This document shows positions 34,970 to 55,689 of a DNA stretch of 64,000 nucleotides, in pieces; positions within the stretch are counted from its first letter, which is position 1; each line of letters starts with the position of its first letter. The position numbers and the translations under genes were made by a program. The notes beneath the pieces are model-generated. The model worked only from the letters and a program-made list of their open reading frames with translations, was not told the origin of the DNA and searched no databases. The stretch is from Candidatus Zhuqueibacterota bacterium (GTDB lineage: Bacteria > BS750m-G25): contig JADHWK010000003.1 of assembly GCA_016783505.1 (NCBI GenBank), positions 26,227 to 90,226 of the forward strand, read 5' to 3'.

Positions 34970-36271
34970 TTAATCTTCCATCCCTCTGTTCGATTCTTTG
35001 CCCTGTTTCTTGTGGACGATGCGCACCTTCTCGATGCGGCGCCCGGAGACCTTTTCGACTAAAAACCCTAAATCCCCGTGCTCAATTGAGGTCCCCTCTT
35101 CGGGCACCGAACCCGTCAAACTGCAGATAAACCCCCCCAAGCTTTCGTAGTCTCCACTTTCTGGAATGTTAAAATCAAGTTCCTCGTTCAACTCGTGAAC
35201 GCTCACTTTAGCATCGGCGAGGACCGTATGTTCGTCAATCCGTCTGAAAGGGGGCAGTTCCTGATCATATTCGTCCTGGATCTCCCCTACGATCTCCTCA
35301 ATGATGTCCTCGAGGGTTACCAGACCCAACGTCCCCCCGTATTCGTCCACCACCACGGCCATATGGATCTTCCTCTGCTGAAACTCACGCAGAAGCTCAT
35401 CTATCTTTTTGCTCTCCGGAATGAAATAGGCTTCCCTCAATAATGCCCGCAAGTTGAATTTGTCCCCGCTGTCCCCCAGATAAGGGAGAAGATCCTTGGC
35501 GTAGATTAATCCCTTAATGTTATCAATCTTCCCTTCGTAAACAGGAATTCGGGAATGTCCCTCCTGACGAAAGATCTCCAGCAGCTCCTGCAGTTTAATG
35601 TTTACATTCACACACACCATATCCATCCGGGGAACCATAATCTCCCTGACCATGGTTTCACCGAATTCAAAGATGGAATGAATCATCTCCCTTTCATCTT
35701 CTTCAAGCACTCCTTCCGCCTCGCCAAGCTCCACCAATGACCTTAGCTCCTCCTCGCTCAGAACCCCACCCCGGTGTCTGGAAACGACCCCTTTTGAGAC
35801 AAGCTGGGCCAGCCCGGTGAGGATAATAGAAATGGGGAACAGGAGAACATGCATCACCCGCAAAGGATAAACAACCCTCCGGGAAAACCCCTGGGGATTT
35901 TTGATGGCTACGGTTTTGGGGGTAATCTCCGATAGGATGAGGATGATAAATGTCACCACTACCACCTCAAAAAATATGGCCCAGCCCCTGGAAAAATGAT
36001 AACGGTGACTTAGGTCAGCCGCCATCAACGCCGCCAGGGAAGCAATAGCGATGTTAACAATGGTATTCCCGGTAAGGATGGTAATAAGGAGCCGACGGGG
36101 TTTCCCTAAAAGCTTCAGGATTAGACTAGAGCTCCGTTTCTTTTCCTCCTTCATCCCCTGGAGGAGGGGCTCAGACAGGGAAAAAAGCGCTGTCTCTGAT
36201 CCTGAAAAGAAAGCGGAAAGAACGAGTAGAAGAATCAAAAGGGCAAATTCAGTCCATAGATTAATTTCCAA
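34970..36271 (-). CDS. HlyC/CorC family transporter (DUF21-CBS-CorC_HlyC)
   Basis: A 433-residue membrane protein: DUF21 four-helix region (1-190), paired CBS domains (about 205-330, with MVPRMDMVCVN and KIHMAVVVDEYGGTLGLVTLEDI) and the C-terminal CorC_HlyC domain (SVHELNEELDF, YESLGGF). Members are linked to Mg/Co handling. Ahead of it, 23 bp away, lies ybeY, matching the frequent ybeY-corC order. Confidence 0.95.
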   Translation of the reverse strand: MEINLWTEFALLILLLVLSAFFSGSETALFSLSEPLLQGMKEEKKRSSSLILKLLGKPRRLLITILTGNTIVNIAIASLAALMAADLSHRYHFSRGWAIFFEVVVVTFIILILSEITPKTVAIKNPQGFSRRVVYPLRVMHVLLFPISIILTGLAQLVSKGVVSRHRGGVLSEEELRSLVELGEAEGVLEEDEREMIHSIFEFGETMVREIMVPRMDMVCVNVNIKLQELLEIFRQEGHSRIPVYEGKIDNIKGLIYAKDLLPYLGDSGDKFNLRALLREAYFIPESKKIDELLREFQQRKIHMAVVVDEYGGTLGLVTLEDIIEEIVGEIQDEYDQELPPFRRIDEHTVLADAKVSVHELNEELDFNIPESGDYESLGGFICSLTGSVPEEGTSIEHGDLGFLVEKVSGRRIEKVRIVHKKQGKESNRGMED

Positions 36272-36294
36272 TTAGAACCTACCTCCATTTATAC

Positions 36295-36744
36295 CTACAT
36301 ACATTTTCTATCCCCCATTTTCTTCCTTAAACCTAGATAATAATCCTCCCGTCCGGTCATTGTTAAACGGCCGCGGCTGGTGCGGTCCGAATACCCTGAA
36401 AGATGCAGGAGGCCGTGAACGGCCAGTCTTAAAATCTCATCCTTCAGGGAGACCCCATACTGGGCAGCTTGTTTCTTGGCCTGTTCCACCGATATGTAGA
36501 TCTCCCCTGAAATTTTTTCATCATCGGGTTCGGTCAAATCAAAAGCCAGTACATCGGTGGTGTTTTCCCGTTTCAGAAAATCCCGATTTAGTCGGACTAT
36601 GGTGGGGTCATCGGTTAATATTACCGTTAGCTCTCCAAACTTTTTGCCCTCAAGTTGTATAACTTTCCGGATCAAGTCTCTAAAGGAAGTTTTTGCAGCC
36701 CCTGGAGGAAAAACGGGATAGGTTGTCTCAATCCTTAGGTTCAC
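36295..36744 (-). CDS. ybeY: Endoribonuclease YbeY (FCB-type ligand set)
   Basis: A 149-residue YbeY, a zinc-dependent enzyme for 16S rRNA maturation and ribosome quality control. The motif is HGLLHLSGYSD: the first two His are kept, but the third ligand His is Asp. Bacteroidetes-type YbeY proteins carry the same change. The stretch TDVLAFDL and the tail TGREDYYL are also present. Together with phoH and the 7TM-HD gene upstream this is a usual conserved block. Confidence 0.93.
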   Translation of the reverse strand: MNLRIETTYPVFPPGAAKTSFRDLIRKVIQLEGKKFGELTVILTDDPTIVRLNRDFLKRENTTDVLAFDLTEPDDEKISGEIYISVEQAKKQAAQYGVSLKDEILRLAVHGLLHLSGYSDRTSRGRLTMTGREDYYLGLRKKMGDRKCM

Positions 36745-37021
36745 CTTCAGCCGCTAAGTTTTAATGTAACAGTTCACCTATTCCTTTCTAATCTTTTAGC
36801 GACAAGATTCACAAAATTTAAAGTAAATCAGAATATCAGTAAATCAGTAGGGAGGGAATCAGATTACCAGAGTATCAGGTTTTATCCTGTCCCAAGATCG
36901 TTCCGAATGTTCTAATCTACTGATATTCGTCCCACTGATATCCTAATTGCCTGATATACTCGTCCCGAAACATCTGGATGTTTACAATTCCTCAAGCATA
37001 GAAGTTTATGTGGATGAACTG
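36745..37021. repeat. Intergenic CTGATAT repeat
   Basis: At 36835-36965 it holds repeated ATCAGTAAATCAG / CACTGATATCCTAATTGCCTGATATAC units, homologous to those at 3880-3945. Otherwise no gene or promoter is visible. Confidence 0.6.
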
Positions 37022-39379
37022 TTACGTTTTAATTTTAGCCGGTTTCGACCTGACCTTCTTGACACCCCCCACCTCTTCAGCCTTGGGGTATTCGACGCGG
37101 CCGTGATAGATCCCCGTCAAAATGCGGACAAAGCTCTGTTTAATAAGATCCAGATCCTTCAGGGTTAGCCAACATTCGTCGAGCTGCCCATCTTCAAATC
37201 TATCCTTTACGATGTCATTCACTACCCCCTTAATTCGGCTGGGTGTAGGGGTCTGAAGTGACCGGGCAGCCGCCTCGATCCCGTCGGCCAGCATGACGAT
37301 GCCCGCCTCCTTGGATTGGGGTTTGGGTCCCGGATACCGGAAATTCTCCAGGTTCAGTTTGGCCCGGGGGGTGCTCTGCAACGCTTTTTGATAAAAATAG
37401 GTCATGATGGAGGTGCCATGATGCTGCTCGATAAAGGCCGTTAGGGCCTTGGGCAACCGGTTCTCCTCCGCCAGCTTAAGCCCATCCTTGATATGGGCGG
37501 CTAAGATCAGGCAGCTCATGCTGGGCTGCAGTTTATCGTGTTTGTTCTCCCCACCGGTCTGATTTTCAATAAAATATTCAGGCTTTTCCATTTTGCCGAT
37601 GTCATGGTAGTATGACCCCACCCGGGCCAGCAGGGAATTGGCCTGGCATGCCTCGGCCGCCGCCTCGGATAAATTTCCGATCAGGATAGAATGATTATAT
37701 GTCCCCGGGGTCTCGGTGGCCAACTGGCGCAGCAGGGGCCGGTTCAGATCTGAAAGCTCCAGCAGGCGCACATCGGAGGTAACATCAAACAGGTTTTCAA
37801 AAACAAAGAGGAACATATAAGTCAACAGGGGTGAGAATACTGAATTGGCAGTCCCGTAGAAAAAATCGGTAAATATCTCCGATGAGAATGAATATCTCAA
37901 AAACCGGACGGCAGTGATGGCCACTATGTAGGCGGCGATCAGATAAAGGGAAGCCATCAACAGTTGGCTCCTCCGCCTCACCCTACGGACGGCAAACAGG
38001 GCCACCGTTCCCACCAGAAAGCAGATGACCGACACCCCGAATTCTCCCCCCATGATTGCCCCCACCAAAAGGCTGATGACGATGACCCCGATGAAACCAA
38101 GCCCCCAGTCGAACAGAATGGTCAACAGCATGGCCCCCAGGGCGACGGGAATTAAATAGCTGGAAAATTGAAATTTTTCTATCACCAAGGAGGTGATTAA
38201 AATTTGGCCCAACAGGATCAGGGCAATCAAAAGGAGCAGCCGGTTATCCTGAAAAATCTGGGGGCGAAAGGTGCGAAGAAAAAGGGCAAATATCAGGATG
38301 ATAAAACCGACGAAGAGGGCCTTTCCAAAATGAGGCAAAAATAACATCCACCCCTGCCTTTCCCCGGCGATTTCCGCCCTCTTTATCCGTAAGGACTCGA
38401 TCTTCCGCAAGTGATCCGGTTTGGCTATCTCATTACTGTCAATGATACGCTCATTTTTTAACACGATCCCCTTTGCCAGGGGGACCTTCTCCACCGCTCG
38501 CTTCTCTCTTTTTTGGGTTTCTTTGGGGTCGAAAAAGATATTAGGCTTCACGAACTGAACAACCATAAAGAGCCCATATCGCACACTGTCGTTTGCGGCC
38601 GATCCGGACGATGAAAATTCTCCCTGCAACAGCATCCGGGCTTTGTTTTCCGCCTCCTTCTCCGTAAGGACCCCGGCGAGTTTGCGAATGATATCTATAC
38701 CCTTTCGCCGCGCCACAATTTCACTGTTAGGGGCGTTGAAGCTATTCTTATCCCGATCAATAACCCCGGTCCGGAATATGTCGGATATGATCTTCAGAAG
38801 GGTATTTTTGAACAGCCCAGTGACTCCGGAGGATGATCTCTCCAGGCTTAGGCGCTGAAAAAAGGCCCATCCTTCAGGGGGGAAATCTAACCTATACTTT
38901 ATCACCAGATCTGACTTCAATGAATCCACCTTTAAAGAATCGGCCACCAACCGTTGCTGAGGGATCTTCCTCGCCATCCTTCGATTTAGGCTGGCCTCAA
39001 TCAGATATTTTTTCTCCTCAAGGACAACTTTCTCTATATTACTAAAGAAATTCTCTAATTGTTTTAATTGACGGGGACGGATGTCCATATCCCAGTTAAA
39101 CACCGGATGGACCTTTTCCCGGGCTTCCTGTCGATCCTTCTCTAACTCCTCATCGCTTTTTAATATCTCAAAATCAAAGGGGGCGATGATCTCTTTAGGA
39201 GCCACGCTACCCAATTTGAGGTCTGCGAATTGAAAAGACTTGCCCCGGGGGAAAAGCAGAACCAGAAAGAGAGCTAACCCCACTCCGATTGCCCCCTTCG
39301 ATAACCACTCCCACCGGTGCACCCTACGCTGTTTTTCTTCCTCACCCCTTTTGGTGAAAATTGAACGAATAAAATTCAT
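37022..39379 (-). CDS. 7TM-HD phosphodiesterase (PgpH/YqfF-like)
   Basis: A 785-790-residue membrane protein: 7TMR-HDED extracellular part (about 50-390), seven membrane helices (about 360-560) and a cytosolic HD domain with NHSILIGNLSEAAAE and the HD pair in YYHDIGKMEKPEYF. PgpH proteins degrade cyclic-di-AMP in Firmicutes. Start: the second ATG (MNFIRSIF) looks likelier than one 5 codons upstream. It follows phoH by 22 bp; 7TM-HD, phoH and ybeY together are a common order. Confidence 0.94.
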   Translation of the reverse strand: MNFIRSIFTKRGEEEKQRRVHRWEWLSKGAIGVGLALFLVLLFPRGKSFQFADLKLGSVAPKEIIAPFDFEILKSDEELEKDRQEAREKVHPVFNWDMDIRPRQLKQLENFFSNIEKVVLEEKKYLIEASLNRRMARKIPQQRLVADSLKVDSLKSDLVIKYRLDFPPEGWAFFQRLSLERSSSGVTGLFKNTLLKIISDIFRTGVIDRDKNSFNAPNSEIVARRKGIDIIRKLAGVLTEKEAENKARMLLQGEFSSSGSAANDSVRYGLFMVVQFVKPNIFFDPKETQKREKRAVEKVPLAKGIVLKNERIIDSNEIAKPDHLRKIESLRIKRAEIAGERQGWMLFLPHFGKALFVGFIILIFALFLRTFRPQIFQDNRLLLLIALILLGQILITSLVIEKFQFSSYLIPVALGAMLLTILFDWGLGFIGVIVISLLVGAIMGGEFGVSVICFLVGTVALFAVRRVRRRSQLLMASLYLIAAYIVAITAVRFLRYSFSSEIFTDFFYGTANSVFSPLLTYMFLFVFENLFDVTSDVRLLELSDLNRPLLRQLATETPGTYNHSILIGNLSEAAAEACQANSLLARVGSYYHDIGKMEKPEYFIENQTGGENKHDKLQPSMSCLILAAHIKDGLKLAEENRLPKALTAFIEQHHGTSIMTYFYQKALQSTPRAKLNLENFRYPGPKPQSKEAGIVMLADGIEAAARSLQTPTPSRIKGVVNDIVKDRFEDGQLDECWLTLKDLDLIKQSFVRILTGIYHGRVEYPKAEEVGGVKKVRSKPAKIKT

Positions 39380-48495: not shown

Positions 48496-50493
48496 TTATT
48501 TGATAAGAAGCATCTTTCTACTCGCCACTGATCCCTGGAATTTAAGTTGGTAGAAATAAATCCCAGAGGCGTATTGGGAAGCATCGAAGAAGAGATAATG
48601 TCGGCCTGCCGGCTGATCCTCTACTACCAGGGTTCGGAGCACCTTCCCCCTGGTGTTATAGATTTTCAGTTGAACCCCTCCAGGCTGGGGAATTTCATAG
48701 GGGATACAGGTGATCGCATTGAAAGGGTTGGGATAATTCTGATCCAGTAGGAAGGCCGTAGGTATCCCAACATCCACACCGTCATCCACGCCCATGGGGG
48801 CATCAAACCAGGCCAGAATCCGGGCCAGAACTGAATCCCGTAGGGTGGACTGACCGTAAGGAGTCATGCTCCCCCCAATTGACTCAAAGGGAAATGAAAA
48901 AAAGACTACCCGGTAGCTCTCGTTGGCGTACCGAATGGCGGCCACATTAGATGTGTTCCGATAGAGGTAGACGGGAACCGCCCCTTCCAGTGGTATTATG
49001 GAACTACTGGAGGATGGCCCCCCGGCTCCATCCCCCCCGGCCAGAAACAACAACGAATCCAACCCGTAAGGATCCCCAATGGGATCCCCGGTAACAGGGG
49101 TTAAATACCAAGTGGCAACATTATCTAACCCCTGCTGGGCGTGGAGGTATTCAGTAAAGAAGGAAGAATCCCCGATTTCGTCCCCGGCATTCTGACTGCT
49201 CAAGAATAGATTCCCCCCACCTTCAAGATAGGCCGCCAACAAGTCCTGCTCCCCGGGGGTCAAGGTGTTGGTGGTGACATCCCCCGTAAACCAGACCACC
49301 TTTGAATAACGCCAGATTTCATCTTGGGGGATGAGTCCCTGGGTGGCATTCTCCCACCGGTCAATGATCCGACCCAGGCTCTCAGTAATACCGATATAAT
49401 ACACTTCAAAATCATCACCCCCGTCGTCATCCACCAGAATAATCTCAGGACGCCCCACCATAAAGGAAAACGCCATAGTATCCTGATAATTGCCGGGTTG
49501 GGCTGAAATAGCTAAGGTGAAATCCACCACGTGGGGCTGCAAGCTGGCATCCACCGAAAAGATGAAAGGTTCAGCAGAGTTGCCGGCCACCGAATCCGGG
49601 GGGATAACGGGATAAGTGACGGTATCCACTATAAAACTGATCTCAGGGTCGGGTGTATAGAGGGTGGCTACCACCGAATCCGCCGGCTGGGAACCGGGGA
49701 CATTTCCCAGGGTCACCACCATCTGGGCCGTCTCCCCCGGGTCGGGACGTCCGTCCCCGTTGCCATCGTCGGTAAGGGAATGACTGACTATACTGAGATT
49801 GGGAAGGGCTTCAACGCTGATCATACCTGCCTGATGAATGACGTAGTTACCCGAAAACGTTTGTACGATAACAACAGCTTTGATATTCTCCAAATCCCAG
49901 GAAGGGTCAAGATCAAAACTGTGACTGAAATCCCCGGTTTCACCGGCAGAAGTCAATGTGAAGTCTTCATCACTGTATCTGGTTACAGTGCAAAAATAAG
50001 TATCGCTAAAATAGTTGGTTAAGATGAAAACCAGTTTGTTATTTGGGGTGGTAATATCTCCGGTCAGATCAATACTCGCATCAATATCAACTCCGCCGGT
50101 AGCATTAGTATACATCGTAAGTTCAATCTCCAGTGGACTATCATCATCAACGATTTGATTATATATCGATAAATAACGTGGGTATGTATTGCCACCCCCA
50201 ATATCTTGAAGATAACCACCAAATTGTGCATGAGGAATCCCGCTAACACCATACATGTTACCTCTTTGAGTAACATTTGGACTAGTGTGTTGATTATATT
50301 CCCAAATTAATGGAACCACATAATCATGGTTTTCATACAGTTGTAACAGCCCGGCCCGGGCGTCAGGACAGTATACTCACCATGAAGCCGTGAATACTTC
50401 GCCAACTACATTCATCTGCGAAGCGAATGATTGCGAAGCGAATGATAATGAGAAAATAAAGCACAATGCCAGTCCGATACTCATCTTCTTCAT
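48496..50493 (-). CDS. Thioredoxin-like (Omp28-like) exported protein with type IX sorting tail; candidate selenoprotein
   Basis: The start is the ATG at 50493: GGAGG precedes it and a consensus promoter lies upstream. The 665-codon frame has an in-frame TGA at codon 39 and then runs to 48496. Signal peptide ends SFASQ; next VVGEVFTASW-[TGA]-VYC, then DARAGL, and GVSGIPHAQFGG about 50 residues later, fitting a thioredoxin-like active site with its cis-proline. The first residue of the usual W-C-x-x-C is the TGA, so selenocysteine gives U-x-x-C. The tail has a 'NYPNPFN..LKIYNTRG...SGIYFYQL' sorting domain. Between lie Ig/FN-like repeats and PEIILVDDDGGDDF. If the TGA is a mutation, the real gene begins further in (for example at 50319) and lacks a signal. 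Confidence 0.72.
50349..50361 (-). promoter_or_regulatory. SECIS-like hairpin after the in-frame TGA
   Basis: GCCCG-GGC-CGGGC: a 5-bp GC stem with loop GGC. The loop G is 21 nt after the TGA. Published bacterial SECIS rules (stem of 4-16 bp, loop of 3-14 nt with G in the first two places, 16-37 nt from TGA) are met. A stem this short and GC-rich also forms by chance, so support is moderate. Confidence 0.5.
50417..50445. repeat. 15-nt tandem duplication in the signal peptide
   Basis: TGCGAAGCGAATGA occurs twice with a 15-nt period, encoding SFASQ twice (SFASQSFASQ) at the signal peptide cleavage region on the minus strand. It keeps the frame. Confidence 0.85.
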
Positions 50494-50528
50494 TAATACC
50501 TCCAGATTTTTGGGTACAATTTAAATAA

Positions 50529-50557
50529 AATATAAGTATTATTTTTGTTTTTGTCAA
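50529..50557 (-). promoter_or_regulatory. Promoter of the candidate selenoprotein gene
   Basis: TTGACA (50552-50557), 17 bp, TATATT (50529-50534), a consensus match. The transcript starts near 50522, leaving a leader of about 30 nt. Confidence 0.9.
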
Positions 50558-54702: not shown

Positions 54703-55689
54703 TCAAAATTTAAAACTTAATGAAAAACGGTTCACATTGCCCAAAAGGCCAAACTGGGTGAAGGCATAGTCCATTTGTAGGCGGTAGCTAACAATGGGCA
54801 TAATGAATCCCGCCCCCAGACTAAACGTCTCTTCGTCCACGTTAAACTTATACCCCCCCCGGAGGGCCAATAACCGTTGCCACCAATATTCAAAACCGAC
54901 ATGGAGGTTCTCCGATTTGTCGTTAGGATGATTAAGTTGTAAGGCAGTGGTCAACTTTTGCTGGGAGGTTTGAAGGAGTTCTATGGCAAAGCCGAAACGG
55001 AATATGGTGGGGGGGTTAAAGGATTGAAAGCTAGTAACCTCCCGCCCATCCGTAGTGAACAAAGTTCCTTTTGGGGTCAACTGGGGACCAAAATTAGTAA
55101 GACTGACGGCAAATCGGGCGCTGTGAAACCCCGTCCAGTAATACGTGCCCAGATCAATCATAACGCTCTGGATTGTCAGCTCGGCAAGGGTCTCCTGCAT
55201 TGCCTTAACCGATCCCCCGAAGCTAAATTGTTCGGTGAACCTCCGAGCAAAGGAGAGTCCTACCAGCAGATCGCCAAAACTGAAGTATCTTCCCGTTCCA
55301 AAGGGTTGCAACTCGGTGGTTTCCTCCATATCGTCCATGTGGAGGGCTATGGCATAAAGGCCAAGGGTGTTCTCGGCCGACAGATGATGGACGTAACCGA
55401 TGAATTCGTGCTTGAGACCCACCAGCCACAGATTATGGGAGATGAAAAATTCATTACGGTCAAACTGCACTAATCCCGCTGGGTTCCAATAGAGGGCGGT
55501 GGCATCATCGGAGACGGCACAGAAGGCCTCGCCCATCCCGGCGGCCCGGCCCCCCACCCCGATCTTCAGGAATTGAGCCGAGGCCGTCCCCGCCCGCTGA
55601 CCCCCCAGAACAGGCCAGAGCTGGGAGAAGGCTGATTGGCTATGAGTCAGAAAAAAAAGCAATGCAATAAGGCAGGTAACTTTTCTCAT
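54703..55689 (-). CDS. PorV/PorQ-like outer-membrane protein
   Basis: A 328-residue beta-barrel of the UPF0164/PorV-PorQ kind: signal peptide, then AGTASAQFLKIGVGGRAAGMGEAFCAVSDDATALYWNPAGL, the family mark. PorV and PorQ belong to the type IX secretion/attachment system; the surrounding genes carry type IX-like sorting tails. The last residues SFKF are a barrel C-terminus. It lies 12 bp from each neighbour. Confidence 0.87.
   Translation of the reverse strand: MRKVTCLIALLFFLTHSQSAFSQLWPVLGGQRAGTASAQFLKIGVGGRAAGMGEAFCAVSDDATALYWNPAGLVQFDRNEFFISHNLWLVGLKHEFIGYVHHLSAENTLGLYAIALHMDDMEETTELQPFGTGRYFSFGDLLVGLSFARRFTEQFSFGGSVKAMQETLAELTIQSVMIDLGTYYWTGFHSARFAVSLTNFGPQLTPKGTLFTTDGREVTSFQSFNPPTIFRFGFAIELLQTSQQKLTTALQLNHPNDKSENLHVGFEYWWQRLLALRGGYKFNVDEETFSLGAGFIMPIVSYRLQMDYAFTQFGLLGNVNRFSLSFKF

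Follow-up and report, generated by a model that had tools for sequence, protein, structure and literature searches.

A divergent Omp28-related gene with an in-frame TGA very probably encodes an exported selenoprotein

A seemingly stop-broken gene in the window (the whole 64,000-nucleotide stretch of DNA that was analysed) is almost certainly intact, its internal TGA being read as selenocysteine (Sec). The gene very probably encodes an exported selenoprotein in which SelB-dependent insertion of Sec at codon 39 completes the UxxC motif of an Omp28-like domain. The main evidence for recoding is comparative. The kind of selenoprotein is known (GOS_C); what is described here appears to be a divergent relative with the architecture of a type IX secretion system (T9SS) substrate.

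Gene structure

Read through, the minus-strand gene (the preliminary description gave no strand) translates into 665 residues with a single internal stop, the TGA that had been reported at the position of the first active-site Cys and that lies in the context EVFTASW-TGA-VYCPDARAGL (MKKMSIGLALCFIFSLSFASQSFASQMNVVGEVFTASW-U-VYCPDARAGL in the read-through translation). The other landmarks of that description were also recovered: 626 open codons (about 625 had been counted) follow the TGA before a TAA, GVSGIPH occupies residues 83-89, and the Shine-Dalgarno site, promoter and signal peptide can all be seen in the upstream part of the sequence (Table 1). Within the signal-peptide region, window positions 50417-50446 form a perfect 15-nt tandem duplication (TGCGAAGCGAATGAT), which encodes SFASQSFASQ.

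Table 1 Window coordinates of the selenoprotein gene, its signals and domains, and a neighbouring secretion-associated gene
Feature	Position	Strand	Basis
Selenoprotein gene, 665 codons + TAA, TGA at codon 39	48496..50493	-	Translation; full-length TGA homologue in G065
TGA codon 39, probably read as Sec (U of W-U-V-Y-C)	50377..50379	-	TGA or Cys aligned at 75 homologous sites
Shine-Dalgarno GGAGG, 5 nt 5' of the ATG	50499..50503	-	Sequence
Sigma-70-like promoter TTGACA-N17-TATATT	50529..50557	-	By eye from sequence
Predicted signal peptide, about residues 1-25, MKKMSIGLALCFIFSLSFASQSFAS	50419..50493	-	Sequence; inference
Omp28/thioredoxin-like domain (residues 25-230) containing UxxC and GIPH	49804..50421	-	NF045500 match; weak matches to Trx/Grx sequences from PDB
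bSECIS-like hairpin with apical loop GGC (50354-50356) 20 nt 3' of the TGA; MFE -15.7 kcal/mol	50334..50375	-	Folding; PMC13188914 criteria
Type A T9SS sorting domain at the C-terminus (residues 587-662)	48508..48735	-	TIGR04183, PF18962
PorV/PorQ family protein (T9SS-associated)	54703..55689	-	NF033709, 217.5 bits, cutoff 90

The NCBIfam model NF045500, "Omp28-related selenoprotein", matches the N-terminal domain of the protein with 69 bits (E 4.7e-19; cutoff 200), and Pfam Omp28 (PF11551) matches it with 15 bits, below the gathering cutoff of 34.9. The NF045500 cutoff of 200 was passed in none of the 386 genomes searched, source genome included. Because a score of 69 bits stands against that cutoff, the protein is best described as a divergent relative of GOS_C/NF045500 that lies outside the stated range of the model. 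GOS_C was reported in 2008 by Zhang and Gladyshev, with 74 Sec sequences and a thioredoxin-like fold (PMC2398784), and a 2026 review places it under NF045500 with the motif UxxC (PMC13188914, Table 1); in both sources, Sec comes first in the motif. The family, which the preliminary description had put forward as possibly new, is therefore already in the literature and in NCBIfam, where the name of the related family is already that of a selenoprotein. A literature search for Omp28 together with selenoprotein returned no paper, GOS_C being the name in use.

In the thioredoxin-like domain of the window protein, UxxC takes the form W-U-V-Y-C. The predicted thioredoxin fold rests on the profile matches and on this motif; a single-sequence structure prediction of the full protein had a pLDDT of 36.5.

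A standard gene caller would instead end translation at codon 39 and begin a separate protein downstream, for example at GTG 50319 (607 aa), a frame that is present in the list of open reading frames. This GTG falls within the conserved thioredoxin-like domain and is not preceded by a clear Shine-Dalgarno site, and the resulting product would have neither the signal peptide nor the UxxC motif conserved in homologues, which makes such a start extremely improbable.

Comparative evidence for recoding

When the read-through protein was first used as a query, two distant relatives were found, in genomes G065 and G068, with a TGA in the same place; the former is full-length and has that TGA as its only internal stop. 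A whole-protein search of the genome contigs gave two loci, neither of which covers the active site of the N-domain, and the whole-protein query was replaced by a profile (A1) made from the three N-domains of the window protein, G065 and G068. This profile found relatives in 67 of the 386 genomes. Among the matches listed, 40 contain one in-frame stop, which is TGA every time. Sequences were fetched for the matches with TGA and for some of those without, a sampling in which the Sec:Cys ratio is not a rate; removal of duplicates left 41 TGA and 34 TGC/TGT sites. Every one of the former (41/41) reads UxxC with the TGA as U, and every one of the latter (34/34) reads CxxC, so that Cys stands exactly at the codon-39 site in the 34 relatives, the comparison that the preliminary description had proposed. 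One TGA (L098), which the profile alignment had displaced by two residues, was positioned via its UxxC motif, and one relative with Asn at the site was left out of the counts. The 41 distinct TGA genes are spread over 29 genomes (21 family codes). One locus (L080, G104:C186:34000-45200) is an 11-kb tandem cluster of Omp28-like paralogues, in which some active sites have TGA, some Cys and one Asn.

These data bear directly on the possibility that TGC or TGT became TGA through nonsense mutation or through an error in sequencing, leaving a pseudogene or a mis-sequenced gene. A single base change would be enough for this, but TGA recurs at the homologous codon in 40 other distinct genes from 28 other genomes, no TAA or TAG was seen inside the domain among the N-domain matches listed from the 386-genome search, and both the long open frame downstream and the full-length G065 homologue, interrupted only by the same TGA, speak against decay. 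Mutation or error is accordingly very improbable, and reading of the codon as Sec is the interpretation followed here.

In a tree of 75 N-domains calculated with the U/C column masked, 15 changes between Sec and Cys were counted, at least nine of which are forced by well-supported branches, the deep branches being weak. Judged from this tree, Sec and Cys swap repeatedly within the family, and this exchange makes the family useful for asking why lineages switch from one residue to the other.

The distribution of the Sec machinery follows that of the codon. Among 55 genomes with relatives that were checked, 28 with TGA genes (source genome excluded) and 27 with Cys only, selB scored over its cutoff in 28/28 of the former versus 14/27 of the latter; the probability that all 13 selB-less genomes should be Cys-only is 1.4e-5, an approximate value since related genomes are not independent. 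The presence of selB in every TGA genome is a further argument against mutation or error. Strong tRNA-Sec matches agree in 25 of the 28 TGA-bearing genomes; in two others (G313 and G177) marginal or partial matches lie at the ends of the selB contigs, and in G024, which has a TGA gene and selB, no tRNA-Sec match exceeded the cutoff. Two elongation-factor-like matches to the selB profile (G366:C4:48883-50052 and G098:C12:38648-39823), from two genomes of one family, contain one internal TAA or TAG.

The source genome, a 2.5-Mb draft that is 60% complete, contains all four genes for which the preliminary description had suggested a search, each above its curated cutoff: selA (495 bits, cutoff 22.8), selB (378 bits, cutoff 242), selD (389 bits, cutoff 125) and selC (68.3 bits, gathering cutoff 47), the last also called by ARAGORN as tRNA-SeC with anticodon TCA. 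On contig C13, about 1.2 kb separates the selA match from the selB match. The selD match (G000:C74:520-1443) is found inside an open frame of 748 aa, which greatly exceeds the 311 positions of the selD model, so that this selD may be a fusion.

Suppressor-like tRNAs that read UGA exist, and relatives do have Cys at the site; an unusual tRNA could thus deliver Cys or another residue, or UGA could be reassigned throughout the genome. Genome-wide reassignment was rejected, as TGA terminates 12 of the 38 long open reading frames in the window, and both versions are set against a complete Sec pathway, a bSECIS and the fact that TGA follows selB across genomes. Decoding as anything other than Sec is, on this evidence, highly improbable.

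In agreement with insertion of Sec, a hairpin lies immediately 3' of codon 39. The preliminary description had pointed to a GC hairpin within the bacterial SECIS range, with G first in its loop, 21 nt after the TGA; such an element was found, with its loop GGC at 20 nt (GCCCG[GGC]CGGGC, 5-bp stem, MFE -15.7 kcal/mol), and it agrees with the published bSECIS model, in which a loop of 3-9 nt, with G in one of its first two positions, lies 16-37 nt after the UGA on a stem of 4-16 bp with an MFE of at most -7.5 (PMC13188914). By itself, the window hairpin is only moderately unusual: its z is -1.87 against dinucleotide shuffles, 10 of 200 of which fold equally well, and -3.47 (p 0.007) against synonymous-codon shuffles, and an MFE of -15 or lower occurs at 6% of random window positions. 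Since 30% of random window positions pass the loose hairpin rule, the hairpin lends support but is insufficient alone, and its use as sole proof of recoding was rejected. Across the family, the bSECIS criteria hold at 37/41 TGA sites versus 18/34 Cys sites (Fisher P 3e-4), a stricter stem rule at 34/41 versus 12/34 (P 2.7e-5), and the mean z against synonymous-codon shuffles is -1.06 for TGA and -0.27 for Cys sites (Mann-Whitney P 0.005). The earlier preference for recoding over random nonsense mutation is thus borne out by the sel genes, the Cys homologues, the bSECIS and the 40 further TGA genes, and the Sec insertion step itself is strongly supported by these sequence comparisons.

Secretion and paralogues

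The C-terminal region of the protein matches two models of T9SS sorting domains, TIGR04183 with 34.6 bits (cutoff 23) and PF18962 with 28.9 bits (cutoff 27). Two further genes near the selenoprotein gene have a T9SS tail, and the neighbouring PorV/PorQ family gene supports the presence of a T9SS in the source genome. In the literature library that was searched, no paper combines selenoprotein, selenocysteine and type IX secretion.

A paralogue with a T9SS tail was found by DNA similarity on contig C35 of the source genome (about 35607-37409; L046:1108-2910, minus strand). Its C-terminal part is 65% identical to the window protein over 454 residues, while its N-terminal part is a ResA/AhpC-TSA-like domain whose active-site motif opens with a TGA (FFATW-U-GGC, that is W-U-G-G-C), followed by a 7-bp SECIS-like hairpin of its own (CTGTGG[AGTTG]CCACAG). 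This paralogue, absent among the matches listed from a Redoxin profile search of the source genome, is likely to be a second exported selenoprotein. Together with the window gene, it provides one genome with two active-site-TGA genes that have a common C-terminal module and T9SS tails. An Omp28-like paralogue with Cys is located on contig C30 (L104:1420-2180, minus strand; NF033782 match, 54.5 bits) and is followed there by a TlpA-like protein with CMPC.

Discussion

In the mechanism that we propose, SelB bound to the hairpin just 3' of codon 39 would bring Sec-tRNA(Sec) to the UGA, and the ribosome would place Sec first in the UxxC motif of the Omp28-like domain, which has a predicted thioredoxin fold. 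The product would probably be exported via the general secretory (Sec translocon) pathway and may then cross the outer membrane by type IX secretion through its C-terminal tail, as the sorting domain suggests. At the surface or outside the cell, the UxxC pair could perform thiol-disulfide (or peroxide-reducing) redox work. The protein's most likely role is in thiol-disulfide redox reactions, at the surface or extracellularly; we infer both this role and the substrate from the motif and the fold family.

With TGA members in 29 genomes, none of which scores above the cutoff, the Omp28-related selenoprotein family is far wider than its curated model, and standard gene calling would truncate its TGA genes at the TGA. 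The combination of Sec and a T9SS tail in one protein suggests extracellular selenium redox chemistry. Two N-domains with an active-site TGA, Omp28-like in the window protein and ResA-like on contig C35, are joined to a common C-terminal module; as a tentative extension, which we consider possible but would not favor, the source genome and probably many of the uncultured lineages recovered in this analysis could have a set of surface T9SS selenoproteins combining one C-terminal module with varied Sec thioredoxin domains, and hence an extracellular selenium redox chemistry on a scale missed by gene calling.

Among known systems, GOS_C/NF045500 shares with the window protein the thioredoxin-like fold (predicted for the latter), the UxxC motif with Sec first and the existence of Cys homologues; however, the model matches only the N-terminal domain, to which the window protein adds a long middle region and the T9SS sorting tail. 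Pfam Omp28 (PF11551) and the Omp28 family lipoproteins (NF033782) are linked by weak matches of the window protein or its TGA relatives and by the Cys paralogue on contig C30, but the matches are under every curated cutoff and the window protein has Sec in place of Cys. Finally, ResA/TlpA-like selenoproteins, redoxins with UxxC, are approached through the C35 paralogue, whose ResA-like domain contains a TGA and whose C-terminal part recurs in the window protein, whereas the N-terminal redox domain of the latter belongs to another thioredoxin family.
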